Source: a virus. From it: a stretch of 21,123 nt of DNA. The stretch lies in the IMG/VR virus record IMGVR_UViG_3300046820_001761, positions 1-21,123 of that record, one strand, 5' to 3'. The notes under the pieces are model-generated. The model had not been told where the DNA came from. It saw only the letters and a list, made by a program, of their open reading frames with translations, and made no database searches. The translations under genes and the position numbers were made by a program. Every line of letters begins with the position of its first letter. Positions within the stretch are counted from its first letter, which is position 1. Below, piece by piece: positions 2,503 through 21,123 of the stretch.

Positions 2503-2512
2503 GAATATATAA
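2503..2512 (+). promoter_or_regulatory. Late-promoter-like motif before capsid gene
   Basis: GAATATATAA, octamer 2505-2512. It lies 100 bases before the capsid start, unlike the usual 19-29, leaving room for a structured leader. Confidence 0.6.
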
Positions 2513-2525
2513 TAAAACAATAAAA

Positions 2526-2566: not shown

Positions 2567-2612
2567 AGCATTACGCTAAAAACAAACAAACAAAACAAAA
2601 ACATTCTCAAAA

Positions 2613-4145: not shown

Positions 4146-4177
4146 TCTGTATTGAAAATCTAACTTAGATTTATATG

Positions 4178-4211
4178 AAAAGGCTCTCCATTGGAGAGCC
4201 TTTTCTTTTTT
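4178..4211 (+). terminator. Intrinsic terminator after capsid gene
   Basis: A perfect 12-base stem AAAAGGCTCTCC / GGAGAGCCTTTT with loop ATT, followed by CTTTTTT. Very strong for the plus strand. Confidence 0.9.
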
Positions 4212-4223
4212 ACCAAGAAAAGT

Positions 4224-4235
4224 AAATATATAAAC
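4224..4235 (+). promoter_or_regulatory. Late-promoter-like motif before the 411-residue repeat-protein gene
   Basis: AAATATATAAAC, octamer 4226-4233, 29 bases before the start, just after the capsid terminator, so the gene can be transcribed separately. Confidence 0.6.
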
Positions 4236-4262
4236 CATATCCAAACATAAACATAAAAGAAT

Positions 4263-6004: not shown

Positions 6005-6078
6005 ATAGTTTATTTATTTTTGAAACTAAAAGAGCATTCTTGATATAAATTAAACTAAAAGTGTATAAAAAATAATTT

Positions 6079-7029
6079 ATGGTTCACTCTCTTTTTACAG
6101 AAAAATATCGTCCGAAGAATCTATCGGAATTAATCTTACCAGATCGTGTAATGTCCAAATTTGAAAATGGAATCACACAGAATATGTTATTAGCTGGAAG
6201 TCCAGGAACTGGTAAAACATCTACAGCAAAAGCAATTGTTAATCAATTTGGTTTGCCGTACATTTACATTAACGCATCGACTGATACTTCAGTTGAAGTT
6301 ATCCGTACCAGAATTACGGATTTCTGTTCAACAATGTCAATCTTAGATGACCAAGGTAAATTCAAAGTAGTTATCTTAGATGAGGTTGATGGAGTATCTG
6401 ATCAGTTCTTTAAAGCATTACGTGCAACCATGGAACAATTTGCAAGTAACTCACGTTTTATTGCAACTTGTAATTATGTTAATAAGATTCCAGATCCAAT
6501 TCTTTCTCGTTTTGAAGTTATCAATTTTGACTTTGATAAAGCTGAAGAGACCGAGTTAACTAAGAAGTATATTAAGAGAGTTTATGAAATCTGTGGTAAA
6601 GAAGAGATGACAATTGAAAAACCAGCATTGGTTGAATTTGTTAAACGTAACTTCCCAGACTTAAGAAGTACTCTTAATAAACTACAAGGTTATAAAACAC
6701 AAGGAACTGGAAATATCACAATTGATGATGTTAAGAAATTTAACTCAGTTTATAAAGATGCATTTGAATTAATTTTCAATGAAACAGATCCTGCAAAGAA
6801 CTATAAAGTTTTAGTTAGTGACTATTCAAATAGAGTTGATGATATTCTACAATCTCTAGGAAATGATTTCATTGAATATGTACAAGCTGAAAGGACTAAC
6901 AGTATCAAGCATATTCCTCAAATTGCAATCTGTGTTGCCAGACATCAAGCTCAAAGAGTTAATGTTATCGACCCAATCATTACAATGTTGAGCTGCTTTT
7001 ACGAATTACAAACGATCGTAAGATCGTAA
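6079..7029 (+). CDS. 44: Sliding-clamp loader large subunit (gp44-like AAA+ ATPase)
   Basis: A 316-residue protein, almost the length of T4 gp44 (319). With gp62, this ATPase opens the sliding clamp and loads it onto primed DNA. Visible motifs: TEKYRP at 7-12, typical of clamp loaders; Walker A GSPGTGKT at 40-47; Walker B VVILDEVD at 97-104; sensor 1 IATCNY at 128-133; and the SRF (SRC-type) motif at 143-145 carrying the arginine finger. The rest is the helical collar domain. It starts the replication block and has no late-type octamer upstream, fitting early expression. A short hairpin with a GTAA loop overlaps the stop codon. Confidence 0.93.
   Translation: MVHSLFTEKYRPKNLSELILPDRVMSKFENGITQNMLLAGSPGTGKTSTAKAIVNQFGLPYIYINASTDTSVEVIRTRITDFCSTMSILDDQGKFKVVILDEVDGVSDQFFKALRATMEQFASNSRFIATCNYVNKIPDPILSRFEVINFDFDKAEETELTKKYIKRVYEICGKEEMTIEKPALVEFVKRNFPDLRSTLNKLQGYKTQGTGNITIDDVKKFNSVYKDAFELIFNETDPAKNYKVLVSDYSNRVDDILQSLGNDFIEYVQAERTNSIKHIPQIAICVARHQAQRVNVIDPIITMLSCFYELQTIVRS
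7012..7027 (+). other. GTAA-loop hairpin at the end of the gp44 gene
   Basis: ACGATC (7012-7017) pairs perfectly with GATCGT (7022-7027) around GTAA, a stable GNRA-type loop as RNA. It overlaps the stop codon and has no T run after it, so it is not a standard terminator. It may protect or mark the 3' end of a message. Confidence 0.4.
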
Positions 7030-7116
7030 AATAATTCAAAAATAATTCACTAAACAGTTTTTTATGTCAAGAAAATTGTTTATATTTACATAAGAAACAA
7101 ATTAAAGAAATAATAT

Positions 7117-8337
7117 ATGAAGCTCGGAAATCATACACTACTTATTGATGGTAACTATTTCATTCATAGTAGATTGTTCGTTCTACCAAGACCTAAAAGC
7201 GGTGCTCTGCTTGGTGATGATGCGAGCAAAGGACAATTCATTCGAAAACTTGCAATCGACTTTGCATCAGAAGTTCGAAAAATGACTCCTTTTGTTAATC
7301 AAATCGTTTTTGCTGTTGATTCAAAATCCTGGCGTAAGGATCTATTTCCTGAAGCACAATACAAAGGTACACGTACTCAAGATAGTTCAGTTGATTGGTC
7401 AGCTGTTTATGAAGTATATGACGAATTTAAATTAATCCTTGCTAAAAAAGGTGTTATTGTAAATCAAGTTAAAGGTGCAGAAGCAGATGATATTCTATTT
7501 GCATGGTCAACTTATTTAAATACACAAGGTAAGAATTGCATTATTTGGACTGGTGACCGTGATATGATTCAATTAGTTGATTACTCAAAAGCAACCGATG
7601 GTTATTCTCTATGGTACTATAACACCAAACGTAAGTTAATTGCATTCGAAGGATTCAATGATATTTTCAGTAACACCACTGAATTAGAAATCTCAAATGA
7701 TGATTTATTATTCAACATGGATAGTCCAAGTCATCAAAGTGATCGTATCAAAAATGAAATGATTGATTGGATGAAAAAGAATTCTATTGAAGTCGAAGAA
7801 ATCAATTGTGATCGTTTCGTTTTCCAAAAGATTCTAATGGGCGACAAATCTGATAATATTAAATCAGTTGTTACGTACCAAAAACCTATGAAAAATGGTA
7901 AAGATCGTACATTCTCAATTACTGACAAACAGGCAGAAGCTATCTTAGAACAATACATTAAAGAAGAAGGCGAATTTGTTATTGACCACATGTTTAACAA
8001 AACACAAGTTGATAAGATTGTTAACCTGATTTACCGCATTATTGGTCATGACACTCAAGTAAATATCCTTAATAGATTTAATCAAAATCTAGATTTGATG
8101 TTACTTCACTACAATACAATACCAGAACCAATTCAACAAGAAATTACTAAAGTAATTGATCGAGATAAAGAAACTGAACCAGCAATTATGGTTCTTTCTC
8201 AAATGGAAAAGATACTTGAAGGATCTAGTTGGTTGAAAAAAGCCAATCAAACACCAGTTGATTTTGATGCATTCGCCGGATTAGACGAAAATGAAACAAA
8301 AGACAAAGATTCATCTACAACTATTAAATTATTTTAA
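7117..8337 (+). CDS. rnh: RNase H / 5'-3' flap exonuclease (T4 Rnh-like)
   Basis: A FEN/PIN-family nuclease of 406 residues that removes RNA primers and 5' flaps during lagging-strand synthesis. Acidic metal-binding residues sit in family positions: LLIDGN (Asp11), FAVDSK (Asp68), GAEADD (Glu122, Asp124, Asp125), WTGDRD (Asp147, Asp149) and MGDKSDN (Asp243, Asp246), the last in the helix-hairpin-helix region. T4 RNase H has 305 residues. The extra length lies in an insertion near 160-230 and a C-terminal extension. That extension ends in acidic residues followed by TIKLF, possibly a clamp- or SSB-binding tail (inference). The stop codon overlaps the next start (taATG), so the genes are probably translationally coupled. 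A weak Bacteroidetes-like -7 box (TATATTTA, 7081-7088) lies upstream. Confidence 0.88.
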   Translation: MKLGNHTLLIDGNYFIHSRLFVLPRPKSGALLGDDASKGQFIRKLAIDFASEVRKMTPFVNQIVFAVDSKSWRKDLFPEAQYKGTRTQDSSVDWSAVYEVYDEFKLILAKKGVIVNQVKGAEADDILFAWSTYLNTQGKNCIIWTGDRDMIQLVDYSKATDGYSLWYYNTKRKLIAFEGFNDIFSNTTELEISNDDLLFNMDSPSHQSDRIKNEMIDWMKKNSIEVEEINCDRFVFQKILMGDKSDNIKSVVTYQKPMKNGKDRTFSITDKQAEAILEQYIKEEGEFVIDHMFNKTQVDKIVNLIYRIIGHDTQVNILNRFNQNLDLMLLHYNTIPEPIQQEITKVIDRDKETEPAIMVLSQMEKILEGSSWLKKANQTPVDFDAFAGLDENETKDKDSSTTIKLF

Positions 8338-8489
8338 TGACAGAAATCGTAGAAGAAATCTTACAAGAAGCAAAAGAATGGGGTCTTGAATATGAGGTAA
8401 AGGTATTCGCCGAAAGCCACATGTCTCAGGACCCAAGTCTTTCAATAGAACAAGCATATATACATGCTTATAATGATTGGATAAAATAA
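8337..8489 (+). CDS. Small 50-residue protein, unrecognised
   Basis: An ATG overlapping the stop of the RNase H gene (taATG) opens a 50-residue frame starting MTEIVEEILQ and ending AYNDWIK. It looks like a folded helical protein: amphipathic helix 1-16, then a second helix after DPSLSIEQAY. Coupling to the upstream gene and the packed context argue that it is real. No function can be given. Confidence 0.6.
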   Translation: MTEIVEEILQEAKEWGLEYEVKVFAESHMSQDPSLSIEQAYIHAYNDWIK

Positions 8490-8495
8490 AACTAT

Positions 8496-8612
8496 ATGAA
8501 ATTAATAGTAAAAGAAGGCGTATATGAAGCAGATACCTTGTTTGGTATTGTTATTGCAGTATTGCAACACAGATTTTGGCATTTGCGTAAGCACGGTAAG
8601 TGGATGGATTAA
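8496..8612 (+). CDS. Small 38-residue protein, unrecognised
   Basis: A short frame starting MKLIVKEGVYEAD and ending HLRKHGKWMD, six bases after the previous stop and 13 bases before the gp62 gene. It has a hydrophobic middle (LFGIVIAVL) followed by a basic/aromatic end (QHRFWHLRKH), so it could touch a membrane or be a tiny helical partner protein. It is kept because it fills the only gap in a packed cluster and starts after an A-rich leader. Function unknown. Confidence 0.5.
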   Translation: MKLIVKEGVYEADTLFGIVIAVLQHRFWHLRKHGKWMD

Positions 8613-8625
8613 TTAAAACAAAAAT

Positions 8626-9054
8626 ATGCTAGACGAAACTAAATTATTTGACTTTGTTAAAATTATGTTTACAAAGCCAAAAGACTATAAGAATATCAAG
8701 GACTTTAATAAGAAGCGTCATCATTTTATGATTAATCGTTTTTTCTCAATTAAGTTTCCTGCAAATGCGCAAGCATTCAATATCAATGGTATTAATGGAC
8801 TAGCAGTTATTGACAGTTGGGCTCTAGTAGCTCAACGTTTTTCTGCGGTTCCACCATGGATCTACACAAAAACTAAGAAATCTGAATCGGCACCTGTCGA
8901 TAAAAAAGAATACATACCTAGTCAAGAGGCAATCGAATTCTATATGAAAAAGAATGAGATTGGTAAAAGAGAATACAATGAAGCTTTAAAGTTTTTCAAA
9001 AAAGAAACACTCGAAGAACTTAAAAGACTTGATGAAAATATAAAAGTTTATTAA
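8626..9054 (+). CDS. 62: Sliding-clamp loader small subunit (gp62-like)
   Basis: A 142-residue protein. Residues 30-80 fit the gp62 family pattern: FMINRFFSIKFPANAQAFN resembles the F-(I/M)-(V/I)-N-R...S..FP motif of T4-like gp62 proteins. It is followed by a hydrophobic segment and a basic/aromatic PPWIYTK in place of the usual K-R-x-x-K-W. The C-terminal part (IEFYMKKNEIGKREYNEALKF) matches the helical end of the family. T4 gp62 has 187 residues, so this is a short version. It forms the A subunit of the clamp loader with gp44, encoded earlier in the same block. In T4 the 62 and 44 genes are adjacent; here RNase H and two tiny ORFs lie between. Its stop overlaps the next start (taATG). Confidence 0.72.
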   Translation: MLDETKLFDFVKIMFTKPKDYKNIKDFNKKRHHFMINRFFSIKFPANAQAFNINGINGLAVIDSWALVAQRFSAVPPWIYTKTKKSESAPVDKKEYIPSQEAIEFYMKKNEIGKREYNEALKFFKKETLEELKRLDENIKVY

Positions 9055-9734
9055 TGCAAGATGATTTCTCAATGTATGATGCTGCCGATGTTGTTGATAT
9101 CGTGCTTTTTAAATACAATTATAACGATAATAAACTTTGGACTGGAATTAGAAACAAAATAGAGTTTCTTAGTCCTGATAAAAATTCAATAATTGTTACT
9201 AAAGATCAGCTTCTAGATTTTATTGAAAGAGAATTCCCAAATGAGATTAATTTATTTAATTCAGTTGGATTTGAAGTAATGCATAAAGAGGTTAATTCAA
9301 TCTTCTTTATTACTAAACTTCTTACACAAATGAAACATCTTAGATGGATCAAATTGACTCTTAATAAGAATAGAATCTACACCAGATTGACCAAAGACGA
9401 AGGAGGTCATGATACAATTAAATTCGGATTTAAAATACTTCATTTAACATTAAAGACATTTGAAATCTTTGATAAAGACGAAGTTGTTATTTTTAATAAA
9501 GTTCTACATGAGCAACGGATCCTAGATGAAGGTGTTCCGTATAAAAGACTAAAACTAAATGACTTATTAGATCGTTTAGACCGTTGGTTAATGGTTGCTG
9601 ATAAAGGAAAAATCAAAGAACTTTCAGACAATGAGATGGATGTTGTAGATACAATTTCTATCATGTTGGATATGATGAGTGATCCAAAACTAGGTGGCGA
9701 TAATCCAGAAGTCCTACTAGTCACCGATTACTGA
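9054..9734 (+). CDS. Unrecognised 226-residue protein of the replication block
   Basis: The start overlaps the stop of the gp62-like gene, implying coupled translation. The protein is soluble and mixed alpha/beta, with alternating charged and hydrophobic stretches. It has a middle part rich in Leu/Ile/Lys (LTLNKNRIYTRLTKDE), a charged helical segment LNDLLDRLDRW near 169-179, and a helix-rich end (MDVVDTISIMLDMMSD). I compared it mentally with T4 gp59, RegA and gp33 and saw no convincing match. It may be a replication or late-transcription accessory factor on context alone. It ends just before a late-promoter-like motif where the neck gene begins. Confidence 0.7.
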   Translation: MQDDFSMYDAADVVDIVLFKYNYNDNKLWTGIRNKIEFLSPDKNSIIVTKDQLLDFIEREFPNEINLFNSVGFEVMHKEVNSIFFITKLLTQMKHLRWIKLTLNKNRIYTRLTKDEGGHDTIKFGFKILHLTLKTFEIFDKDEVVIFNKVLHEQRILDEGVPYKRLKLNDLLDRLDRWLMVADKGKIKELSDNEMDVVDTISIMLDMMSDPKLGGDNPEVLLVTDY

Positions 9735-9746
9735 GAATATATAAAC
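9735..9746 (+). promoter_or_regulatory. Late-promoter-like motif before neck gene
   Basis: GAATATATAAAC, octamer 9737-9744, 19 bases before the start. It marks the switch from the replication block, which has no such motif, to structural genes. Confidence 0.6.
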
Positions 9747-9763
9747 AAAATTAACTCATTGTA

Positions 9764-11713
9764 ATGGTTACAGGTAGTATTGCAACAGCATACGGCGATT
9801 TTCTAATTGCATCAATCAAGACCCCATATTTAAACTTAAAGAAAGTTATGACATGGGACATACTTTCTGGAGTATCAGATATTTCAACATTAGGAACTCT
9901 TAGTTTTACTAGTGGTTCTACTATTGTTTATGGAACTGGTACTGATTTTACCAGACTTTTCCAAAATTCACATTTTATTATTGTTGGAAACAGAGTTTTA
10001 GAAATCGCAAGCGTAACTAATAGTACAACATTAGTACTAACACTTCCAGTTAATTTTTCTGGATCTGGATTTACATTCTATCGACCAGTTGATGCCAATA
10101 ATAAATTCGACTACACTTTTAGACTTTCAACTGATAAAGGTAAAACTTTTAGTGAATTCTCTGAATTAAATACAAATGTTCTACCTGGAGATATTAAATC
10201 TTATTTATGGAATTCAGGCGCTGATGTATTAATAGATTTTGGAGCAGAGGTATCAGCATTAAATACTGGAGCTAAATTAACATTTATTTCAGCAACGTTA
10301 ACAGTTGAAACAGTTGCTGGTACTATTGAATCATGTCCACAATTCTGTACAACATGTACAGATCCTTTCATTTATTCAGGATGCGCAACAATTGAAGCAA
10401 CTTGCTCAGATCCAAATGCTTTATTTCAACCATACCGACAATTTAGATCCCAACAAACATATATACAATTAGCAAATATTGTTAAAAATATCTTTGGTCA
10501 TCAGGTTACTTATTTTAGAACTGAACCTGATATGAGAACAAAAGACGTTATCTTAATGGAATATTCATTACATAATGTCGTTGATCAGGATGTTGTTAAA
10601 ATCTTGGTTCCAGATAATGAGTTTCCTCAAGAATCTACAACTAACTTCGATATGTTTGGTATGGAATTTGAAGATTTTGAAATCCATATTACACAACAAG
10701 AATTCCAGACTGTTTTTGGACAAGGTAAAAGACCACGTGAGCATGATTACATGTTCATTCCAATTATTAATAAAATGTATATGATTAATTCGGTTTCTTT
10801 AGGAGATCGTTTTAATGAGACAATCACATATTGGAAAGTGATGTTGACTAAATATCAAAATGATACTGCTGTACTTAAAAATAGTTTTGAAACTTTAACA
10901 GATTCATTAGTTACTGATGTTGATGAAATATTTGGTGCTGAGATTAAAGATGAGTACATCAAGAATACTAAGCCTGATATTTTCCAAACTGTTTCTACAG
11001 CTTATTTAGATGGTATTAGAAATTTTGTATCAACTGATTTAAAAATTGTTGATAGTGAAATTAAAAACAGATGGACTACGGTTTCTAAAAATTATTACAA
11101 TCTTGGTCCTGTTAATACAGGTTTCGCAGCAATCGAATATACTGCACCTGTTAAATCATCAACAGGATTTGGATTAACATGTTGGTTCTCTCCAGAATTT
11201 AATTTTAATTCAACAACTGATTATTGGTTATTTGGAAATAGCACAATCAATAAAGGACTTAAGGTTACAGTATCTGGTCAAAATATAAAAGTATACATCA
11301 ATGCTAACACGTACACATTTACTACAAATGTTATTATGGGAACAGATAGATGGTATGGCCTTGTTATTAATGGTAATAAGCAATTCAATCAATTATCAGT
11401 TACCTTATATTCATTAGATCCAAATAATAATACAGTTGGATTACCACAATCAGCATCAAATGATTTAGTAAAAGTATTTGAGCAGACTAGAAATCAGGTT
11501 TATAATATATCATGGGATATTCCTGAATCTAAATACTCACTTAAAGGTGGATTGTTAAAAATAACCAACATACGATTATTTCATATTCCAGTTGAAGTAG
11601 AGCAACATAGTAACGTATTAAATCAATACGTTGTTCGCGATAATCAACTTGCAACTATTATAGATAATGCTATCCCGTCTCTTGGATTCCAGAAATTCAG
11701 AAGTGCACAATAA
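9764..11713 (+). CDS. 14: Neck protein (gp14-like) with extra N-terminal and LamG-like domains
   Basis: A 649-residue protein. Residues about 222-365 follow T4 gp14: FGHQVTYF near the start, FDMFGMEFEDFEIHI in the middle, then KRPREHDYMFIPIINKMYMI, where gp14 has a similar FSNFGM and PKEGDLIYFP pattern. gp14 helps form the neck joining head and tail. T4 gp14 has only 256 residues. Here residues 1-215 add an unrecognised beta-rich region with a Cys cluster (191, 195, 198, 207, 214). Residues about 455-610 add a beta-rich segment (GFGLTCWFSPEF, DYWLFGN, DRWYGLVINGN) resembling a LamG/concanavalin-like lectin fold, possibly displayed outside. A late-promoter-like motif lies 19 bases upstream. 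Core assignment is good; domain roles are inferred. Confidence 0.72.
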   Translation: MVTGSIATAYGDFLIASIKTPYLNLKKVMTWDILSGVSDISTLGTLSFTSGSTIVYGTGTDFTRLFQNSHFIIVGNRVLEIASVTNSTTLVLTLPVNFSGSGFTFYRPVDANNKFDYTFRLSTDKGKTFSEFSELNTNVLPGDIKSYLWNSGADVLIDFGAEVSALNTGAKLTFISATLTVETVAGTIESCPQFCTTCTDPFIYSGCATIEATCSDPNALFQPYRQFRSQQTYIQLANIVKNIFGHQVTYFRTEPDMRTKDVILMEYSLHNVVDQDVVKILVPDNEFPQESTTNFDMFGMEFEDFEIHITQQEFQTVFGQGKRPREHDYMFIPIINKMYMINSVSLGDRFNETITYWKVMLTKYQNDTAVLKNSFETLTDSLVTDVDEIFGAEIKDEYIKNTKPDIFQTVSTAYLDGIRNFVSTDLKIVDSEIKNRWTTVSKNYYNLGPVNTGFAAIEYTAPVKSSTGFGLTCWFSPEFNFNSTTDYWLFGNSTINKGLKVTVSGQNIKVYINANTYTFTTNVIMGTDRWYGLVINGNKQFNQLSVTLYSLDPNNNTVGLPQSASNDLVKVFEQTRNQVYNISWDIPESKYSLKGGLLKITNIRLFHIPVEVEQHSNVLNQYVVRDNQLATIIDNAIPSLGFQKFRSAQ

Positions 11714-11732
11714 TTTATTGGGATACATATTC

Positions 11733-11740
11733 TATAAATA
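11733..11740 (+). promoter_or_regulatory. TATAAATA box before the small terminase gene
   Basis: An exact copy of the T4 late promoter core TATAAATA, ten bases before the start codon. The leader would be only a few bases, so it may be chance or give a nearly leaderless message. It is weaker evidence than the ATATATAA set. Confidence 0.35.
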
Positions 11741-11750
11741 ATATCATATT

Positions 11751-12431
11751 ATGTCAGAAGAAAAAGATAAGAATAGGCCAATTCGTGACCAGGCAGAGGA
11801 TATTCGTAAAGAATTAGAATGGTTAATTGGTGATGAGGAATCTTTAACAGATTTAGTCGATACAGATACACCATTGCCATCTGTCCCACCGGCACATAAA
11901 AGCCCTGCAGTTTCATATACTAATTTAAAATCTAGTTCAGAAGCTCAAGCTAAGAAAACTATTACAGCATTAATGAAATTCTATCTCGATGCAGATATTA
12001 TCGAGAATGATGAGTATGTTAAGGCAAAAAAGAAAATGGACGAAATGACAATGTCGTCTCTGGTTTATCAGCTTCAAGCTGGTGAAAGAGCTCTAACATT
12101 ATTATTAGAAACTATTGAAGATGGAGAGTTATCTCCAAGAATGTTCGAGGTATTGGCAACTTTACAAAAGTCAATGCTCGACATTATAAAATCACAAACA
12201 ATGTATTTGATGGCAACTGAAGAATCTAACAAGAGAATTGCTAGAGATATTGAAGTTTACCGTAAAAACACAAATACAACTCAGATTGAGGAAGTTGGAG
12301 GAGATTCTAAAGATCCAAATATCCAAAGAGGTACAAAGGACCTAATGAGAATGATTCAAATGGGAATTAATCAATCTGGCGAAGATGAGAATCTTGATGT
12401 GATTGAAATAAACCCAGAAGAAAATGAGTGA
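11751..12431 (+). CDS. 16: Probable small terminase subunit (gp16-like)
   Basis: A 226-residue protein directly upstream of, and overlapping by eight bases, the large terminase gene, exactly where T4 gene 16 lies. The middle (about 66-190) is predicted-looking helix and coiled coil (AKKTITALMKFYLDADII; MFEVLATLQKSMLDIIKSQ), flanked by charged, probably flexible ends. This fits the small terminase design: a central helical oligomerisation core that regulates DNA recognition and gp17 ATPase. It is longer than T4 gp16 (164). Sequence similarity alone would not prove it; context and architecture carry the call. A TATAAATA box lies just upstream. Confidence 0.68.
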   Translation: MSEEKDKNRPIRDQAEDIRKELEWLIGDEESLTDLVDTDTPLPSVPPAHKSPAVSYTNLKSSSEAQAKKTITALMKFYLDADIIENDEYVKAKKKMDEMTMSSLVYQLQAGERALTLLLETIEDGELSPRMFEVLATLQKSMLDIIKSQTMYLMATEESNKRIARDIEVYRKNTNTTQIEEVGGDSKDPNIQRGTKDLMRMIQMGINQSGEDENLDVIEINPEENE

Positions 12432-14241
12432 TAATATATGGATTCCTAAAGATTCCGATGAAACACAGTCAACCAAGGTAGTATGGTCAACTAAAGCAAT
12501 TAATGATTTAACAGTCGCTTTAGATAAAGGTTATCGTCCTCAGGTTTCAATGCCCTTCTATGAAGGTAAACAACATTTGAAACGAGGTAATATTGTATTT
12601 GAATACACCGATGCCGAAATTACAGAAATTGCAAAATGCGCGCATGATATTGTGTACTTTGCTGAGAAATATGCGGTTGTAATGACCGATGAGGGGATTC
12701 AAAAGGTAAAACTTCGTGAATACCAAAAAGATATGTTGAGAAACTTTCAACATAATCGATTTAATATTGTTCTAGCATCCAGACAGATGGGTAAAACGGT
12801 AACAGCGTCAATTTTTAACGCTTGGTTTATTTGTTTTAATGTGGACAAGAATACTCTACTTTTAGCCAATAAGGGAGAAACTACCAAAGAGATTATTGAT
12901 AAAGCAAAAGTTGTAATTGAACATTTGCCATTCTTTATGAAACCAGGAATTATTAAGTACGACGTTATGAACGTTCGATGTGATAATGGTTGCCGTCTAG
13001 TAGGACAATCAACTACTGCAAAAGCCGGTATTGGTTTTACCATTCATAATCTATACTTAGATGAGTTTGCACACATCCATCCAAATATTGTTGATGTATT
13101 CTATGAAAACGTTTATCCAACGTTATCATCTTCGAAAATATCTAGGATTAATATTACATCAACTCCAAATGGATTTAATAAATTCTATGAAATTTGGGCA
13201 GCCGCAATTAATGGAAAGAATGCATACACTCCAATGCGAATCGACTGGTTCCAACATCCAGACCGAGATGAAGCATGGTACAAACGAGAATTAGAGAACT
13301 TAGGTTCAGAAGAGGCATTTAACCGACAATATGGTAATGAATTCGTAAGTTCGTCTTCTCTATTACTTTCACCAGGATCTCTTGGTAAGTTAAGAAAGAA
13401 CTCAGGTAAGTTTGTTTTTCATGAACTAGAAGACTTTGATAATATACATATTGACGTAAAGGGATTCCTAGGATTCAAGCCAGGATTCGACATTGAAACC
13501 GTTAAAGAAGAGGGTAAATATTGGTTATTTACAATCGATATTGCCGAAGGTTCGGGTCGAGATTACTCAGTAATTAATGTGTTTGAAGTTATTGCAATGT
13601 CTAAAAAGGAAATTGAAGCTTCTGAAAATCCAGGTGCAATGTATGATTTCTTTAAATTAGATCAGGTTGCAGTATTTAAAAGTAATGAGCATCCAATCGA
13701 AGATTTCTCAAAAATATTATATACACTTGCTATTGATGTCTTCAACTCTGAGAACGTTAAAATGCTAATTGAATTTAATACATACGGAACAATTCTATTA
13801 AAATATTTACAGACGGTATTCCCTCAACGTAATGATTTCGATGAAGATATGATTCTTCGTTTCAAACATCGACATGATTCTAAAGGAGTAAAACCAGGAC
13901 TTAGGTTACGATCTGATAATAAAGCGGTATTTTGCCAAAATTTCAAGAAACTAATCGAAGGAAATAGGATAAATATTAATGAAGTTGAAACAGTTAACGA
14001 AGCTTCATTATTTGGTGTTAACAAGAGCGGAAATTATTCAGCACAAATGGGTCATGATGACTTAATTATGTCAGCAATTATTTCAACTGAGTTTTTTGGA
14101 ACAACCGATTACGCCGATTTTATTGAAGAAATCTTAGATGTTATTGACGAAAAATTACATGATTTCATGGAAGCAACACTCTACAAGGACAACCAGTCCC
14201 AAGGAGACTTGCAATATGACATCTACGATTTATTAAGTTAA
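12424..14241 (+). CDS. 17: Terminase large subunit (gp17-like packaging ATPase/nuclease)
   Basis: A 605-residue protein, nearly the length of T4 gp17 (610). It cuts concatemeric DNA and drives it into the prohead through the portal. ATPase domain: Walker A SRQMGKT at 119-125, Walker B LYLDEF at 210-215, coupling motif TSTPNG at 245-250. Nuclease domain of RNase H fold: Asp372 in FTIDIAEGSGRDYS, Glu450 in MLIEFNTYG, Asp545/546 in GHDDLIMS, the three acidic metal ligands. All key residues are present, so it should be active. The start overlaps the end of the gp16-like gene, a sign of coupled translation. Confidence 0.95.
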   Translation: MSDNIWIPKDSDETQSTKVVWSTKAINDLTVALDKGYRPQVSMPFYEGKQHLKRGNIVFEYTDAEITEIAKCAHDIVYFAEKYAVVMTDEGIQKVKLREYQKDMLRNFQHNRFNIVLASRQMGKTVTASIFNAWFICFNVDKNTLLLANKGETTKEIIDKAKVVIEHLPFFMKPGIIKYDVMNVRCDNGCRLVGQSTTAKAGIGFTIHNLYLDEFAHIHPNIVDVFYENVYPTLSSSKISRINITSTPNGFNKFYEIWAAAINGKNAYTPMRIDWFQHPDRDEAWYKRELENLGSEEAFNRQYGNEFVSSSSLLLSPGSLGKLRKNSGKFVFHELEDFDNIHIDVKGFLGFKPGFDIETVKEEGKYWLFTIDIAEGSGRDYSVINVFEVIAMSKKEIEASENPGAMYDFFKLDQVAVFKSNEHPIEDFSKILYTLAIDVFNSENVKMLIEFNTYGTILLKYLQTVFPQRNDFDEDMILRFKHRHDSKGVKPGLRLRSDNKAVFCQNFKKLIEGNRININEVETVNEASLFGVNKSGNYSAQMGHDDLIMSAIISTEFFGTTDYADFIEEILDVIDEKLHDFMEATLYKDNQSQGDLQYDIYDLLS

Positions 14242-14261
14242 TAAAATCAGAGATAGAAACA

Positions 14262-14270
14262 GATATATAG
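14262..14270 (+). promoter_or_regulatory. Late-promoter-like motif before sheath gene
   Basis: GATATATAG, octamer 14263-14270, 26 bases before the start. A G replaces the last A, the same variant as before the tape-measure gene. Confidence 0.55.
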
Positions 14271-14296
14271 AATAAAGAAAAAAAGATCAAAATAAC

Positions 14297-17158
14297 ATGG
14301 CACTAAGTCCTCAACTATTGCAATTTAAGAGTTCAGGTGTTTATCGTCTAGAATTCGATAAATCACAAACAACGAACTTTGCGACAGAGACTATCAGATT
14401 GGTAGTTGGTCACTCTAAAAAGGGCCCTTACAATACTCCAGTTCTTATTCAGTCTACAGAAGATTTCAACGCAATCTTCGGTGGTATTGATAGAAACCTA
14501 GAGAAGAAGGGTATCTTCTTTCACAGATCTGCATTTGCAGCTCTTACTAGAGGTCCGATCCTTGCCTTAAACTTAGCAACATTCGAAGCTTCTGATGAAA
14601 TCAGTTATGTAGCACCCGTTACCAATGGTAGCGACCACACTGCAATTGCTGAATCAGGAAGTGATGAATACACTAAGTTTTTCGACACTGATAAATTCTG
14701 GTATCCAAGCGATGCAGCTGTTATCTCAACAATTGGTACAGATAACAACAGAATGATTAATTTCATTAACATTAAACAAGAGCCAATTACTATTTTTGTA
14801 AGAAAAGCACAAGACGTTGCTACATTCGAAGTTACTGCTAGAGAGTGGTACGGAGAAGGTAATGTTCCTGCATTCTTAAATGATAAAGATTATTTGTCAG
14901 ATTTTATGGTAGACGTTTTCGTTTTCAAAGGTGAATTCGATGCTGCTACTTTAGCAACTGACCCGGTTTACAAAAACTACTTTAACACATCTGGTTTATT
15001 AAAAGACCAATTATCAGCTTTCTCTAATTTGAGACAAGTTTCTTTAATTGCTCAATACACTGGTTCATTAATTCCTAACTTCAAAGATCTTGAAGGTAGA
15101 AACATGTATGTTGAAACAATGATTAACGCAGAAGCTAGAAGAACTGGTTTATTCTGTGCTGTTGATGAAGATAACGTACAAGAAGAAACAGGAACTAATG
15201 TTGATTTAGTTGGACACGTTTACGATAAAGATCAAAATTACGATCTATTATCTTATAAAGTAAACCAAGATTTAAGTCCAGCATCTGGTACTACAGTTTC
15301 TTTAGGAGCTGGTCACGTTGACCAAGCAACTACAAGTTTACTTACTGTTCCTACTTTAACAGCTTCTGGAATTACTGCTTCAGGTTCAGTATTGAAGATT
15401 TATTCTACAACTAACTTATCTGGAGATTTTACAACTTCTAAATATCTTAAAACTGGTGCTTCTACTTGGGGTATCATCACTGGATCTACTTACGTAACTG
15501 GTGCTGAACCATATACTCAAGTAACAATTACTGGAACTGTATTTGCATCTGCTTATACTTCATTGGTTGCTAATAATAATATTCCTTATGGAACATTTAA
15601 TCCTGCAGTAACTGAAGTTGGAACAGGCGGAGATGTTAATAAATTATATGCACATCATGTTGATTTAACTTCATTGATCGCGGTTGGTACATTTATTGAA
15701 GCTCAAGCTACAGGAGAATATGTTGAAGTAACTGGAGTTTCATATGCTGCTGACAAAACAACTATCACATGTGATGGACCTGTTAAAATTGCATTAGGTG
15801 GTTTAACTTCATTTAAAAAATATGCAATTACAACTAAGAGAGTTATCACTTACAACGGTACTGAATTGAACTTAGCAGGAAGTGGTAATGTTACTGCAAC
15901 TTATGAAAACTTAGGTGGTGGTATCTTTAAATTTACTTATGCATCTCCAATTTCAACAGTAACGCTTAAGAAAGGACAATATGTTCCTTCTGCAACTGCT
16001 GGAAGACTTGCTAAAATTAAATCAGTAGCTAAATCAGTAGCTGGCGGAACTACAACCGTAACAGTAACTTGTGATTCTACTGTACCTAGCGTATTTGGTG
16101 GAAAATATATTGTTTCTTTCGAAGAAGCAACTGATGTATATGTACCATTCATTTTAGCTAAAGCTTCTGTTGGTGATAAATCAATCGCAGATTGTTTATT
16201 AGCACTTAGCGGAACTAACTTATTTGACGCATTAGCTGACAAAGATTTAATTCTTTACAGATATATCGTTGATACTTTTGGTTCTTATGATACTGTTGAA
16301 GGTTTACAAAATAAGAAAGAACTTTCTTATTTAGCACACGAAAGACAAAATGCTGCAGCTATCTTAAATGCACCAACAATTGCTGATTTCAAAAAATCAA
16401 CTAACCCATCATTTACCGATGGAAGTGGAGCATTTGATGCAATGTATTTGAAAGATGGTGGAAACTTGGATAAAAATCCAACTGCATTCTATACACTTCC
16501 TTCAATCAGTGATGGAGCTAACTATGGTTTCTATTATGGACCTGGTTTATTAATCAGAGAGAACGGAAAGGACATCGTTGTACCACCAGCTGCTTACGTA
16601 TCTAATAACTACATCGATAAATATTCAACCGCATTACCTTGGTCAATTATTGCTGGTCCAAGAAGAGGAGTTGTATCTGGAACTGGAGTTGTTGGAGTTG
16701 AATACGCTTTTGATAAAAATGATAGAGACGTAATCGAACCATTTGGTATCAATCCAATCGTTTTCCAAAGAGGAGTAGGTTTAACCATCCTTGGTAACAA
16801 AACTGGTCAACAATCAGTTAAATCAGCACTTTCTTCTGCACACGTAAGAGAAGTATTGATCCACATCCAAGAAGGTTTAGCTAACATTCTTAAAGGTTAT
16901 GTTTTTGAATTTAATACAGCACAAACAAGACTTGAAATCAAAACTTTAGCAGATGCCTTTATGGAATCAGTTAAAGCAGATCAAGGTGTTTATGACTTTA
17001 AGAACGTTATCGATCAATCAAATAACACTAATGAAGTTATCGACAACAACATTGGTATCTTAGATACTTTCGTTGAACCAGTTAAAGGTTTAGAAATCGT
17101 TGTTCATAGAACTACAGTATTAAATACTGGCGAAATTCAAACTGGAAACTTCAGCTAA
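14297..17158 (+). CDS. 18: Tail sheath protein (gp18-like), enlarged
   Basis: A 953-residue contractile sheath protein; T4 gp18 has 659. The N-terminus (SPQLLQFKSSGVYRLEFDKS, then VVGHSKKGPYNTPVL) and the C-terminal domain (VREVLIHIQEGLANILKGYVFEFN, GLEIVVHRTTVLNTGEI) are typical of the family and carry the conserved inter-subunit contact regions. The extra length is a Thr/Gly/Ser-rich beta region at about residues 325-625. It contains three degenerate copies of a strand-rich motif, probably extra domains on the sheath surface. A late-promoter-like motif (ATATATAG) lies 26 bases upstream. The gene is followed at once by the tube gene, the usual order for sheath and tube. Confidence 0.92.
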   Translation: MALSPQLLQFKSSGVYRLEFDKSQTTNFATETIRLVVGHSKKGPYNTPVLIQSTEDFNAIFGGIDRNLEKKGIFFHRSAFAALTRGPILALNLATFEASDEISYVAPVTNGSDHTAIAESGSDEYTKFFDTDKFWYPSDAAVISTIGTDNNRMINFINIKQEPITIFVRKAQDVATFEVTAREWYGEGNVPAFLNDKDYLSDFMVDVFVFKGEFDAATLATDPVYKNYFNTSGLLKDQLSAFSNLRQVSLIAQYTGSLIPNFKDLEGRNMYVETMINAEARRTGLFCAVDEDNVQEETGTNVDLVGHVYDKDQNYDLLSYKVNQDLSPASGTTVSLGAGHVDQATTSLLTVPTLTASGITASGSVLKIYSTTNLSGDFTTSKYLKTGASTWGIITGSTYVTGAEPYTQVTITGTVFASAYTSLVANNNIPYGTFNPAVTEVGTGGDVNKLYAHHVDLTSLIAVGTFIEAQATGEYVEVTGVSYAADKTTITCDGPVKIALGGLTSFKKYAITTKRVITYNGTELNLAGSGNVTATYENLGGGIFKFTYASPISTVTLKKGQYVPSATAGRLAKIKSVAKSVAGGTTTVTVTCDSTVPSVFGGKYIVSFEEATDVYVPFILAKASVGDKSIADCLLALSGTNLFDALADKDLILYRYIVDTFGSYDTVEGLQNKKELSYLAHERQNAAAILNAPTIADFKKSTNPSFTDGSGAFDAMYLKDGGNLDKNPTAFYTLPSISDGANYGFYYGPGLLIRENGKDIVVPPAAYVSNNYIDKYSTALPWSIIAGPRRGVVSGTGVVGVEYAFDKNDRDVIEPFGINPIVFQRGVGLTILGNKTGQQSVKSALSSAHVREVLIHIQEGLANILKGYVFEFNTAQTRLEIKTLADAFMESVKADQGVYDFKNVIDQSNNTNEVIDNNIGILDTFVEPVKGLEIVVHRTTVLNTGEIQTGNFS
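15437..16078 (+). repeat. Three degenerate beta-rich modules in the sheath insertion
   Basis: Segments at 15437-15535, 15686-15778 and 15974-16078 (residues 381-413, 464-494, 560-594) share (F/Y)(L/I/V)xxxATG/GAS, a short strand, a turn, then a Thr/Val strand (QVTITG, KTTITCDG, TTVTVTCDS). Similarity is weak and judged by eye. Confidence 0.45.
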
Positions 17159-17163
17159 AATTA

Positions 17164-17172
17164 GATATATAA
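17164..17172 (+). promoter_or_regulatory. Late-promoter-like motif before tube gene
   Basis: GATATATAA, octamer 17165-17172, 19 bases before the start and only six bases after the sheath stop codon. Confidence 0.6.
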
Positions 17173-17191
17173 AAAAACAATAAAAAACAAG

Positions 17192-17746
17192 ATGGCTTTA
17201 CCACATTATTCACAAGACCAGACAAGCAGAAAAGGTTCTCAATGGGAACCGGTACAAAGTAACCTCTTTGAAGTTACTGTTATTCCACCTGCAGGTGTAA
17301 AAGGTTCTCCATTGTTATTACAACATGTTAATAGCATCGGTGGTTTGGATCTATATAGAGAAGTTTCTGAAGTTCAACAAAAGTACAAATTCGCTACTCG
17401 TTCTTACGCTGGTATGCCGGACAATACTTCATTGGACATCAATATCAATTTCTCTTTGAACTTAAATGATTCAAATCAAGCTTACCTATATAAAACTCTA
17501 AGAGAATGGTATAATTTACAATACGATCCTCAAACAGGTTTAATGGGTTTGAAGAAAGATTACACTGGAACTTTAGTTATCGTTCAGTTCAATAGAGCTG
17601 GAGATATTTACAGAACAATCACTTTAGAAGATTGCTTTATTAAATCAGGATTACCGTTTACTAACGAATTAAGTTATGACTCAACAGATCCTGCTACTAT
17701 CGAAGTAACTTGGAAGTGCGATACTTTTAAAGAAGTATTAGCGTAA
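17192..17746 (+). CDS. 19: Tail tube protein (gp19-like)
   Basis: A 184-residue protein (T4 gp19: 163) that stacks as hexameric rings to form the rigid inner tail tube. The pattern WEPVQSNLFEVTVIPP, followed by a beta-rich middle (FATRSYAGMPDNTSLDININF), YLYKTLREWYNLQYDP and a C-terminal VTWKCDTFKE, is typical of the family. It lies right after the sheath gene, with its own octamer 19 bases upstream, and is closed by an intrinsic terminator. This matches a protein made in many copies. Confidence 0.92.
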   Translation: MALPHYSQDQTSRKGSQWEPVQSNLFEVTVIPPAGVKGSPLLLQHVNSIGGLDLYREVSEVQQKYKFATRSYAGMPDNTSLDININFSLNLNDSNQAYLYKTLREWYNLQYDPQTGLMGLKKDYTGTLVIVQFNRAGDIYRTITLEDCFIKSGLPFTNELSYDSTDPATIEVTWKCDTFKEVLA

Positions 17747-17761
17747 TTTAAAATTTTACAA

Positions 17762-17791
17762 AAGGGATGACGAGAGTCATCCCTTCTTTTT
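17762..17791 (+). terminator. Intrinsic terminator after tail tube gene
   Basis: A perfect 10-base stem AAGGGATGAC / GTCATCCCTT with loop GAGA, followed by CTTTTT. Strong for the plus strand. Confidence 0.88.
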
Positions 17792-17796
17792 GTAAA

Positions 17797-17806
17797 GAAT
17801 ATATAA
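17797..17806 (+). promoter_or_regulatory. Late-promoter-like motif before the RHH/hub unit
   Basis: GAATATATAA, octamer 17799-17806, 19 bases before the start and just after the tube terminator. Confidence 0.6.
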
Positions 17807-17825
17807 TATATTATTAAGATAATCT

Positions 17826-18044
17826 ATGTCAAACAAACTAACCCGGAAACTTCAGGTATTAATTACTGACGAAGAAGTCCAAGCTCTCAATATAATCATT
17901 TTAAATGATGCATTAGAAGCTGAACAAAGACCTATTTCGGTTTCTGCGTTTATTAGAGAACTAATAAGACGAGAAATTGATCGACGTCCCGATTTAAATA
18001 AAGAATGGGACAAAACAAAAGTTAAACACTTAAAATCAAAGTAA
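17826..18044 (+). CDS. Small ribbon-helix-helix-like protein, possible regulator
   Basis: A 72-residue basic protein. Residues 8-14 (KLQVLIT) could be the DNA-contacting strand, DEEVQALNIIILND the first helix, and SVSAFIRELIRREI the second helix of a ribbon-helix-helix (CopG/Arc-like) fold. The C-terminus is Lys/Arg-rich. Such proteins bind operators as dimers. Here it opens the hub/tape-measure transcription unit, behind its own late-type octamer, and is one base from the gp26-like gene. It may regulate late genes, but no target can be named. The fold is judged by eye. Confidence 0.6.
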   Translation: MSNKLTRKLQVLITDEEVQALNIIILNDALEAEQRPISVSAFIRELIRREIDRRPDLNKEWDKTKVKHLKSK

Positions 18045-18045
18045 T

Positions 18046-19011
18046 ATGGCAAACAACAAGAATCAAAACGACGAAACAAACATGGAAGAACAGTACCGTA
18101 AAATGGTAGAAGCTAAAGAAGCTCAAGAAAATCAAGTAGAAGAAAGAGTTGACTTAGGAAAAGTAAACATGGACCGTTATGCAACACAAACTGCATTAGA
18201 CCCAGATTTGCACTTAGGTTATCATTCAATTGATATTTCTGGATTACCATCAGGTGGAAGATTCTATCCAAGTGATGCTAAAATGGCAATCAGACCAGCT
18301 CAAGTAGCTGAAGTACGTCATTTCTCAACTATCGATGAAGGTAACTTATTAGATATTGAGGACAAATTAAATCACATTGTAAAAAACTGTGTTAGATTCC
18401 AATGCGGTGCAAAAGTACTATCGTACAAAGACATCTTAGAAGAGGATAGAATTTATATTCTATTATCAATCAGAGACCTAACATTCCCTGAACCAGAATC
18501 TAAATTAACTATTAAAGCAACAACTAAAGACGGTGAAGAATTCGATGCTGAACTTTCAGCTAGATATTTCCAATTGTCTCAAGTTCCAGATGAAATTGCA
18601 AAATATTATGACGATGAAAAACGTGCATTTGCAATTCAAACTAAAAGCTTTGGTACAATTCTTATGAGACCACCTTCAATTGGTGTTATGGAAGCAGTAA
18701 CAAATTACATTAAAGTTCGTCAAGTTGAGAAAAAAGCTTGGGATCAATCTTATTTACAAATCATTCCTTACCTAACTTTAGATTGGAGAGGATTTAACGA
18801 TGAGAAAATCTTTAAAGGTGAAATCGAGTTCCACAGTTGGAACACACAAAAATATTCATTAGTCTATAGACTTGCAGAAAAGATGAGAATTGGGGTTCAA
18901 CCTGAAATGTTGGTACCACACGAGGATGAGGAGGTTCTCGTTACTATCGGCTTTCGTGACGGGATCAAATCTCTTTTCGTTGTTCAAGATATCGCTGGAG
19001 AACTTCTTTAA
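18046..19011 (+). CDS. 26: Baseplate hub / tail-assembly chaperone (gp26-like)
   Basis: A 321-residue protein. The region about 60-310 has features of the T4 baseplate (gp26/gp51-type) family: ISGLPSGGRFYP, the run of charged helices after VAEVRHFST, ILLSIRDLTFPEP, then DWRGF and a C-terminal DGIKSLFVVQDIAGELL. It is longer than T4 gp26 (208), with an extra charged N-terminus. Its place just before the tape-measure-like gene fits a chaperone that coats the tape measure during assembly. The frame stops at TAA 19009-19011 inside a possible +1 frameshift signal, beyond which the +1 frame stays open to 19261. Confidence 0.72.
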   Translation: MANNKNQNDETNMEEQYRKMVEAKEAQENQVEERVDLGKVNMDRYATQTALDPDLHLGYHSIDISGLPSGGRFYPSDAKMAIRPAQVAEVRHFSTIDEGNLLDIEDKLNHIVKNCVRFQCGAKVLSYKDILEEDRIYILLSIRDLTFPEPESKLTIKATTKDGEEFDAELSARYFQLSQVPDEIAKYYDDEKRAFAIQTKSFGTILMRPPSIGVMEAVTNYIKVRQVEKKAWDQSYLQIIPYLTLDWRGFNDEKIFKGEIEFHSWNTQKYSLVYRLAEKMRIGVQPEMLVPHEDEEVLVTIGFRDGIKSLFVVQDIAGELL

Positions 19012-19012
19012 G
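19006..19012 (+). other. Candidate programmed +1 frameshift site, CTT TAA G
   Basis: The last sense codon of the gp26-like gene is CTT, then the stop TAA and G. A peptidyl tRNA on CUU can re-pair with UUU after a +1 slip, giving AAG as the next codon and entering the downstream open frame (K-T-K-F-Y-L-M...). The same CUU-stop arrangement (CUU UGA C) is the known +1 site of bacterial release factor 2 genes. There is no adjacent Shine-Dalgarno-like stimulator, but Bacteroidetes rarely rely on one. Confidence 0.55.
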
Positions 19013-19027
19013 ACGAAGTTCTATCTC

Positions 19028-19261
19028 ATGTATCATCTGCATTTACAACCATCTGAGATCGATAAACTTGAATATTACGAATATTGGTATATCGTTAAAG
19101 ACCTTGCAGATTATATTAAGAGACAGAATGACGGACAAAAAGGTCAAGAAGAAGGTGCAATGGACAAATATGGAGATCCTCAAAAAATGGCAAAAGCTAA
19201 AATGCCTAATATGAAAGCTCCATCATTCAAAACACCAAGTTTCAAGACTCCTAAGTTCTAA
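19028..19261 (+). CDS. Short hub/chaperone extension ORF, probably reached by frameshifting
   Basis: A 77-residue frame from ATG 19028 (MYHLHLQPSEIDKLEYYEYWYI), with a Lys/Pro-rich end repeating PSFKTP. The +1 frame is open without a stop from 18890, overlapping the end of the gp26-like gene by about 120 bases. There are only 16 bases between that gene's stop and this ATG, with no clear initiation signal. The YYEYWYI segment and position match the short downstream part of frameshifted tail-chaperone genes (lambda G/T type; the gp51 role in T4). A +1 shift at 19006-19012 would yield a fusion of 404 residues. Independent translation from 19028 remains possible. Confidence 0.65.
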   Translation: MYHLHLQPSEIDKLEYYEYWYIVKDLADYIKRQNDGQKGQEEGAMDKYGDPQKMAKAKMPNMKAPSFKTPSFKTPKF

Positions 19262-19265
19262 GCTT

Positions 19266-19274
19266 GATATATAG
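19266..19274 (+). promoter_or_regulatory. Late-promoter-like motif before tape-measure gene
   Basis: GATATATAG, octamer 19267-19274, 22 bases before the TTG start. The constant spacing supports TTG 19297 as the start. Confidence 0.55.
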
Positions 19275-19296
19275 TAAAAAATAAGATTCATAGATT

Positions 19297-21123
19297 TTGA
19301 GTATCTTTAAAAGTCCATTTGAACGACTATCAGTCGATAATCTTACATATATTAGTACATCCACCCAGATTACTGCAGAAGCAGTTAGTCCGGGTGGAAT
19401 ACTATTTGGTAAGGTTGAAGAGATGGTTCGATTATTAAAAACCATTGCTAAAAATACTGCAAATTCTGGTAAACAATCCGGTGGAAATTCTGGCGGTGGC
19501 GGAGGAATGGGTATTGGTAATGCAATTGCCCTAAAAATAGTTGGTGGTAAAGGACTTGAAGGTATTGGTAAAGGATTAGCTGCAATTGTTGAAGCAATTG
19601 AATCTATGAAAGGAAGTGGTAAACAATTTAAAGAAAAGGCAGAAGCCTTAGTACTTACAATTGATGCTATTTCAAAAATTGGACCAGCAATTCTTAAATT
19701 TGCCGGTTATTTATTCTTGGCAACACCTCTATTAATAGTTGGTATGATAGCAGCCCCATTATTTGGGCTAGCTCTATTTGTTATAACAAAAGTTTTACAA
19801 ATGGCGTCAAAACCACTATCAGATCCGAAAACACAACAGGCATTAATTGCAATGGGTGATGTTGCAAAAGCAATTCTATTATTTGGAGTTGCATTAGTTT
19901 TAGCAACGGTAATTTACCCGGCTGGAATGTCTGCATTACCATATATTGTAATTTCATTATTAGCAATTGGAGGACTCTTCTTTTTACTAGATAAAATGGG
20001 AGTTGATAAATCAATGAAACGAATCAGTGTTGGATTAATGTTCGCTGCCGGAGCTATCGTTTTATTAGGACTTGCATTCTTATTAGTAGATACAATGTAT
20101 CAAGCGATGGACGATCCTGCAATGACAATGTTAATGATTGCTGGAATGGTTGTTGGAGTTGCAGTTGTATTCTGGTTAGCTGGTAAATTTGCTAAAGAGA
20201 TATTATTAGGTTCTCTTGTTATGATATTTGCTGCAATCCCAATTATATTATTAGGAGTTGCAGTTTCTATATTTGCAGCATCTATTACTCCAGATGAAGC
20301 TGGTTGGATTACAATCGGTCAAATTGGAGCATTGGTTACTGGTGTTGGTCTTGTTATGGGACTTGCTGGAGCCGCAGCACCTTTTATACTTGCTGGAGCC
20401 GCAGCAATGATTGTTGCTGGACTTGCATTAGTATTTGTTTCTTTAGGAGCTGCTGCAATGGCTAAGTTATTCAGTAGTACTGATATGACCAAAATGCTTG
20501 GAGATTCAGGACATGAAACTGAAGGATTTATGGGATTTGGTGGTGGAAGAATGATGAGTAATATGGAGTGGTTGATGTTATCAATTGCTCGTTCATTTAC
20601 TCTTAATCCTCTTTCAATTATGTCAATGTATGCTACTGCACCGGCTATGGTTATGGTTGGAGTTGCATTAGCAACAGTTGCTTATGGAATTAAAAAAGTA
20701 CAAGATTTAAAAATTAATTATGATGTTTTACCAGATCAAATTGGTAAATTAGTTACAGTTTTAGCTGGAGCCTTTGGAGCAATTGGAACACAATTTCCTG
20801 GAGGTAGAAAAAGCGTATTAAGTAGTATTTTTGGAGGTGGTTCTCAATCTGCTGTCGCTGATGGTATTGATGCTTGTTTAGGAATGGGAGATGCTTTATC
20901 TTCTATTGCTCAAGGAGTTCAATCTATGGCTGACTTAAAGTTCCCAATATACTCAGGAACTAAAATCACAGGTTACTACACACTATCTAGTGACACATTT
21001 AAAAAGGTTAATGATAATATCAATTTAATTGTTGGTTCACTAAGTACAACCTTTGGTGAACTAGGACTTAAATATCCTGGAGGTAAAGCAGGTTTCCTTT
21101 CTAGTGTTTTTGGAAGTGGAAAA
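19297..21123 (+). CDS. Tape-measure-like protein, N-terminal part (runs off the window)
   Basis: An open frame of 609 codons to the window end. An in-frame TAG at 19291-19293 limits the start, so TTG at 19297 (or ATT just before) is used; the first residues read (M)SIFKSPFERLSVDNLTYIS. A Gly-rich linker (58-74) precedes many hydrophobic helices between about 126 and 390 and near 445-465. From 485 on it has a repeated PGG(K/R)xxxLSS(V/I)FG motif. Length, many membrane-like segments and position after the chaperone pair fit a tail tape measure (gp29 role), which sets tail length and may enter the host membrane during DNA ejection. No sequence homology is recognised. An octamer lies 22 bases upstream. 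Confidence 0.65.
   Translation, partial: MSIFKSPFERLSVDNLTYISTSTQITAEAVSPGGILFGKVEEMVRLLKTIAKNTANSGKQSGGNSGGGGGMGIGNAIALKIVGGKGLEGIGKGLAAIVEAIESMKGSGKQFKEKAEALVLTIDAISKIGPAILKFAGYLFLATPLLIVGMIAAPLFGLALFVITKVLQMASKPLSDPKTQQALIAMGDVAKAILLFGVALVLATVIYPAGMSALPYIVISLLAIGGLFFLLDKMGVDKSMKRISVGLMFAAGAIVLLGLAFLLVDTMYQAMDDPAMTMLMIAGMVVGVAVVFWLAGKFAKEILLGSLVMIFAAIPIILLGVAVSIFAASITPDEAGWITIGQIGALVTGVGLVMGLAGAAAPFILAGAAAMIVAGLALVFVSLGAAAMAKLFSSTDMTKMLGDSGHETEGFMGFGGGRMMSNMEWLMLSIARSFTLNPLSIMSMYATAPAMVMVGVALATVAYGIKKVQDLKINYDVLPDQIGKLVTVLAGAFGAIGTQFPGGRKSVLSSIFGGGSQSAVADGIDACLGMGDALSSIAQGVQSMADLKFPIYSGTKITGYYTLSSDTFKKVNDNINLIVGSLSTTFGELGLKYPGGKAGFLSSVFGSGK
20749..21123 (+). repeat. Tandem PGG motif repeat in the tape-measure-like protein
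   Basis: Residues 485-516 and 578-609 share L-x-x-x-FG-x-(I/L)G-x-x-(F/Y)PGG(R/K)-x-x-x-LSS(I/V)FG, 93 residues apart. The second copy runs to the window edge, so more copies may follow. Confidence 0.6.

Follow-up and report, generated by a model that had tools for sequence, protein, structure and literature searches.

How the short reading frame that overlaps the end of a tail chaperone gene is expressed is the question raised by a 21 kb virus record of IMG/VR, a metagenomic virus contig of 21,123 nt (this whole stretch is called the window below). The gene in question (18046..19011; all window features discussed here are on the + strand) encodes a gp26-like chaperone of 321 aa, the G-like product, which was defined by its open reading frame (ORF), an AlphaFold2 model and Foldseek. 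Its frame-0 ORF ends GAA CTT CTT TAA G, and the +1 frame is open from 18890 to 19261. A sequence-only reading had described this overlap in the same terms, as a check of the sequence confirmed, and had proposed that a programmed +1 shift at the CUU-UAA stop joins the chaperone to the short frame in the layout of lambda G/GT. Conservation of the +1 frame and dual coding, both described below, support the shift and the layout. Sequence comparison indicates, however, that the programmed +1 frameshift of this T4-type tail chaperone very probably occurs at UUU_C, and the best-supported slip site is the UUU_C at 18952..18955, 57 nt upstream of the stop.

A scan of IMG/VR yielded 80 relatives with 53–100% identity, and the downstream frame was +1 in every one of them that covered the gene end. 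More distant homologs (21–46% identity) occurred in the named phages Lak, PAU, MA9V, MaF61, PTm1 and pT24 and in huge uncultured phages; hosts of the named phages are nearly all Bacteroidota. The +1 extension is also kept in these distant named phages, in Lak-B5 only with TAG read as sense, and in a second deep clade, L084, it likewise lies in the +1 frame. In total, the extension stays in the +1 frame in 140 of 141 distinct relatives. Because the relatives read, whose identity ranges from 100% to ~21%, keep the +1 frame, the +1 ORF is not a product of chance. A search of a bacterial genome collection with peptide patterns detected no relative, and 18 diverse chaperones aligned together were too dissimilar to make a usable search query. 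With a contig of metagenomic origin, an assembly or sequencing indel in this single record might be suspected of creating the overlap, but the same frame relation in more than 140 distinct sequences, isolate genomes included, refutes this explanation and leaves it virtually no probability.

Inside the +1-open zone, a frame-0 TTT followed by C was found in 140 of the 141 distinct relatives. TTT-C was invariant in all 28 clusters of the clade to which the window belongs (the window clade) and in all 42 clusters of the L084 clade, with distances from TTT to the stop of 57 nt and 63 nt, respectively. The residue after Phe differs (Arg, Pro or Gln) and its codon always begins with C; the codon directly 5' of TTT varies freely (GGC, AGC, ACC, CAA, CAG, GTG and others), and upstream of the site, further columns of conserved Phe use both TTT and TTC. 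The A-site codon is CGU in the window (18955-18957), whereas across the relatives CGT was counted 37 times and CCC 87 times, with few others; CGN is characteristic of the window clade and CCC of the L084 clade, where it follows TTT in 42 of 42 clusters and makes up 0% of Pro codons in the upstream part of the gene examined. The nearest +1 stop is located 5 nt before TTT (within one codon), and none occurs from TTT to the frame-0 stop. The site has the arrangement of the PA-X type, in which an in-frame UUU is followed by C and P-site tRNA-Phe could re-pair from UUU to UUC in the +1 frame.

The segment from 18955 to 19008 encodes both the frame-0 C-terminal tail, RDGIKSLFVVQDIAGELL, and a +1 peptide, VTGSNLFSLFKISLENFF, as judged by synonymous variation and an excess of +1-synonymous changes. 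In the window clade (28 clusters), the fraction of synonymous differences in frame 0 fell from 0.435 upstream to 0.10 from TTT onward, and in the L084 clade (42 clusters) it fell from 0.422 to 0.057. The lowest interval of a sliding-window analysis begins at TTT in both clades (in the window clade, within one codon), and none of 20,000 resamplings was as low as the observed synonymous minimum. At TTT, variation shifts from position 3 to position 1 of the frame-0 codons. Changes in the overlap were +1-synonymous about twice as often as expected (0.46 in the window clade and 0.34 in the L084 clade, against expectations of 0.22 and 0.19), and the -1 frame showed no comparable synonymous excess there. 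A conserved slip site is here combined with dual coding up to the frame-0 stop, as in G/GT-type genes.

These data also bear on the stop itself (TAA, 19009..19011). If the ribosome slipped at CUU-UAA in the manner of release factor 2 (RF2) genes, and the upstream conservation had some other cause, the fusion would contain a peptide with FVTGSNLFSLFK / SLFVVQDIAGELLK. A +1 shift at CUU_U is proven for prfB, and CTT-TAA occurs without exception in the window clade and is kept in part of the L082 clade. However, CUU-stop is absent from the L084 and L089 clades and from Lak, PAU, MaF61, PTm1 and pT24, in which the +1 extension persists; the last codons found elsewhere are GAA, AAA, AAG, GAG, TCT, TTA, ATT and TTT, and TTA-TGA also occurs. 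Some of the contexts in distant relatives (GAA-TAA, AAG-TAA and GAG-TAA) are not slippery. Moreover, the 57–63 nt before the stop are already under +1 constraint, which would be pointless if the +1 frame were entered only at the stop, and two boundary tests, independent of each other, place the slip at the upstream end of this segment, at UUU_C. We therefore consider a slip at the stop very unlikely. The terminal CTT is kept because its TT-T spells Phe in the +1 frame, and is best viewed as a consequence of dual coding, stop contexts differing among relatives. Of the two features that the sequence-only reading had proposed to look for in an alignment of related phages, conservation of the overlapping +1 frame was found, whereas CTT-stop did not extend beyond the window clade and some of the L082 clade. 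The L-L-K-T-K junction that it predicted should not exist with the slip at UUU_C, and its suggestion that the shift might sense release factor levels is not supported.

Upstream of UUU_C, the RNA has a hairpin (18920..18941), a probable 5' stimulator, as indicated by folding, shuffling and covariation. The stem ACGAGG/UCUCGU (18920-18925 with 18936-18941) closes the loop AUGAGGAGGU; in the window, 10 nt separate the 3' arm from UUU, and the fold has a free energy of -9.1 kcal/mol and a z of -2.5. The distance from the 3' arm to UUU is usually ~10 nt in relatives; some subclades have 6 or 4 nt instead. The loop contains a perfect Shine-Dalgarno (SD) core, AGGAGG (18929..18934), 17 nt 5' of UUU, and AGGAGG or GGAGG is found at this distance in most members of four clades. 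The codons GAG GAG are almost invariant there, although GAG is a minor Glu codon (18% in the window; 18–26% across the clades examined). Hairpin scores were 16.9 in the window clade, compared with 6.4 +/- 0.7 in synonymous shuffles that preserve the protein, and 15.1 in the L084 clade, compared with 8.8 +/- 0.5. The stem shows compensatory changes, with covariation scores that none of 500 shuffles reached and slid controls that were also well below. CTC makes up 0.3% of the remaining Leu codons of the gene, yet it is present in the hairpin arm of 15 of 28 clusters. As for a stimulatory 3' RNA structure, no downstream consensus was detected (alifold 0.0 to -0.4), and an Rfam search gave no match. 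In previous experiments with 70S ribosomes, +1 shifting was stimulated by an internal SD and likewise by an upstream hairpin, which mimics such an SD (PMC6321510).

The same AGGAGG could be regarded as a ribosome binding site, in which case no shift would be needed and the extension would be a separate gene with an internal +1 start. The extension does have a good SD upstream and, in the window, an ATG 24 codons past the slip site, and it is annotated publicly as a separate ORF. On the other hand, the +1 product lacks any ATG over its first 45 codons in 9 of 27 window-clade clusters, which excludes ATG initiation in those clusters, and no start codon is conserved at TTT-C, where the dual-coding constraint begins (GTG, CCA, CAG and others follow). 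In addition, SD was seen at none of the 16 gene starts of the window (69-19297), whose leaders are A/T-rich and Bacteroidota-like. Internal initiation is, in our estimation, highly improbable. If the ribosome instead moved by -2 at this site, as it does in phage Mu, it would enter the same frame, and backward movement is what an SD far upstream normally promotes. However, tRNA-Phe would then have to re-pair with the preceding, freely varying codon, where it has no fit, whereas the +1 move to UUC gives perfect pairing every time, so that a backward shift is hardly to be expected.

The +1 shift at UUU_C would proceed as follows. With the ribosome at GGC UUU CGU and its P-site UUU paired to tRNA-Phe, the tRNA would slip +1 onto UUC, with perfect UUU/UUC re-pairing. 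The slip would be favoured by this re-pairing, by an A-site codon (CGU in the window, CCC in one clade) that many relatives use rarely, and by refolding of the hairpin at the mRNA exit, where the AGGAGG in its loop might pair with the anti-SD. A minority of ribosomes would shift and produce a 404-residue fusion of 303 frame-0 and 101 frame +1 residues that carries F-VTGSNLFSLFKISLENFFK, with IGVQPEMLVPHEDEEVLVTIGF-VTGSNLFSLFK as the predicted junction peptide; non-shifting ribosomes would stop at TAA and release the 321-residue protein. We infer both the shift itself and its rate, the comparison resting on the conserved frame, the exact start of dual coding, the invariant site and the hairpin. 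The pair would act like lambda gpG/gpGT: the tape measure would be bound by the common part, and the tube is probably recruited by the +1 domain.

Additional occurrences were sought with two scans of IMG/VR by DNA pattern only. The SD-N15-TTTCC scan returned 79 sites, 60 of them in this chaperone gene, and shift architecture was present in 59 of these 60 and in 0 of the 19 others. The SD-N15-TTTCG scan returned 80 sites, including 14 in this chaperone gene and 3 other shift-like matches, among them L400 and L423 (one unrelated phage, two copies). GGAGG-N17-TTTC alone was not specific in whole genomes. The L400 chaperone (PHROG 313) has SD in a hairpin loop, UUU_CGU and a frame-0 stop 18 codons on; its +1 extension matches PHROG 3914, and a tape measure gene is next. 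Relatives of L400 are T5-like phages (Demerecviridae), whose chaperone family is unrelated to that of the window. All 10 T5-like members read (L400:1016-1805(-), L478, L479, L480, L482-L487) have UUU_CG[UA] and, after it, a +1 extension; the frame-0 stop comes 2 to 18 codons after the slip site, and the extension comprises 115–143 codons. Aeromonas phage TS3 (L481) was left out because its reading frame appears broken in the record. In a T5-like genome paper, the chaperones were described as lacking a predicted frameshift signal (PMC6256483).

Several observations weigh against a shift at UUU_C or against parts of the proposed mechanism. CGU represents 26% of Arg codons in the window and is thus not rare. 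The SD, whose role we infer, lies 17 nt from UUU, a spacing far greater than the 3 nt between SD and P site in RF2 and also greater than the 8–11 nt quoted for -1 stimulation. TTT-C is missing from the homologous place in the Chryseobacterium phages MA9V-1/-2 and in LR756504; MA9V-1/-2 do have TTT-C, but elsewhere in the +1-open zone, and were counted as exceptions. In PTm1, TTT-C is displaced by 5 codons and is without SD. The hairpin was significant per sequence only in 27 of 42, 3 of 5 and 3 of 6 members of three clades, and the T5-like members checked, other than L400, have no SD.

The AlphaFold2 model of the frame-0 protein has a pLDDT of 82, and its fold neighbors (Foldseek, BFVD) are T4-like baseplate hub assembly chaperones, the best at ~2e-9; a fold search of PDB with the chaperone returned nothing, and a Pfam search gave no match. 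The +1-frame extension (18953..19261) consists of the F common with frame 0 and 101 aa, which form a helical domain and a K-[MT]-P tail. Its match to PHROG 634 ('baseplate hub assembly catalyst', the gp51 family) is weak (E 0.001), and when folded alone the extension is helical with low-to-moderate confidence (pLDDT 65). The frame-0 fold and this weak PHROG match agree with the gp26/gp51 type that the sequence-only reading had named, and it is a reasonable reading that the short form would be gp26-like and the long form gp51-like. In the tail of the extension (19180-19258), K-[MT]-P / F-K-T-P motifs are repeated and the C-terminus is PK[FLM], features kept across the window clade. This might possibly be a binding tail.

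The chaperone gene is placed between tube and tape measure, with the extension overlapping in another frame, as in G/GT-type loci. A tail sheath protein (14297..17158) was identified by Phage_sheath_1C with an E of 2e-5, which falls slightly short of the curated cut-off. It is followed by a probable tail tube protein (17192..17746), which has no Pfam match and was assigned by its position in the order sheath-tube-chaperone-tape measure. The next gene downstream of the chaperone (19297..21123, TTG start, running past the window end) encodes a tape-measure-like protein, as had been suggested, a role given by position only; Pfam and PHROG searches returned no match. Between the tube and chaperone genes is a 72-aa ORF (17826-18044) whose match to ribbon-helix-helix is weak (E 0.02); this would be an unusual position for a DNA-binding protein.

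Bacteroidota ribosomes hide the anti-SD behind bS21 and normally ignore SDs (PMC9976891), and in Chryseobacterium the anti-SD is altered and the prfB shift is lost (PMC8710568). A bS21 gene (PF01165) was found in the records of 11 of 29 relatives (L003, L049, L053, L058, L131, L142, L168, L206, L235, L084 and L089). It is conceivable, but in our opinion unlikely, that the cassette senses the host anti-SD state, with more frameshifting mainly on ribosomes that lack bS21 or have exchanged it. If true, the tail-chaperone ratio would be tied to ribosome remodelling late in infection. An SD-displaying hairpin in phages of mostly SD-ignoring hosts makes a role of the anti-SD in elongation directly testable. 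At the homologous place, MA9V-1/-2 are without AGGAGG and TTT-C and have CTG GAA instead, a possible natural experiment in one lineage only.

In lambda gpG/gpGT and P2 E/E+E', likewise, a chaperone encoded between tube and tape measure receives a C-terminal extension by a programmed shift near its end. In these systems the shift is -1 on X_XXY_YYZ, whereas in the window it would be +1 at UUU_C, with a 5' hairpin displaying SD, no conserved 3' structure and a T4-type gp26/gp51 fold. The prfB (RF2) site, AGGGGGUAU_CUU_UGA, has the same +1 direction and an upstream SD. In the window, however, the SD is 17 nt rather than 3 nt from the P-site codon and lies in a hairpin loop, CUU-stop is not a conserved slip site, and the function is not release-factor autoregulation. 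A perfect AGGAGG is present in Flavobacterium prfB (PMC8710568).

The closest parallel at the slip site is influenza PA-X, in which UUU_CGU is a +1 site proven by mass spectrometry and the full site, UCC_UUU_CGU, has the same UUU_C, A-site CGU and P-site tRNA-Phe slip as the window (PMC3498833). No stimulator is evident in PA-X (PMC5009743), whereas the window comes from a bacterial virus that uses the 70S ribosome and has no conserved E-site UCC and a dedicated 5' hairpin with SD. The UUU_C class, which its discoverers proposed for eukaryotic viruses, would be extended to phages, a novelty judged against the open-access literature. Isolate-genome annotations in which the extension stands as a gene of its own or a hypothetical one (PAU gp93/94, PTm1, MaF61 and T5-like phages) would be corrected.

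Frameshifting in tail chaperones is widely conserved in long-tailed phages, T4 being cited as the exception (PMC5009743). The frame-0 fold resembles that of T4 gp26/gp51 and the PHROG 634 match of the extension is weak, but in the window both forms would come from one gene. T5-like chaperones share UUU_CG[UA] and the +1 extension; they differ in family (PHROG 313/3914), and the hairpin SD was found only in L400. UUU_C may thus provide a single simple signal for relatives of both exceptions, T4-type and T5-type chaperones. The G/GT mechanism is known; what appears to be new is a variant of it, a +1 shift at UUU_C in a T4-type chaperone.
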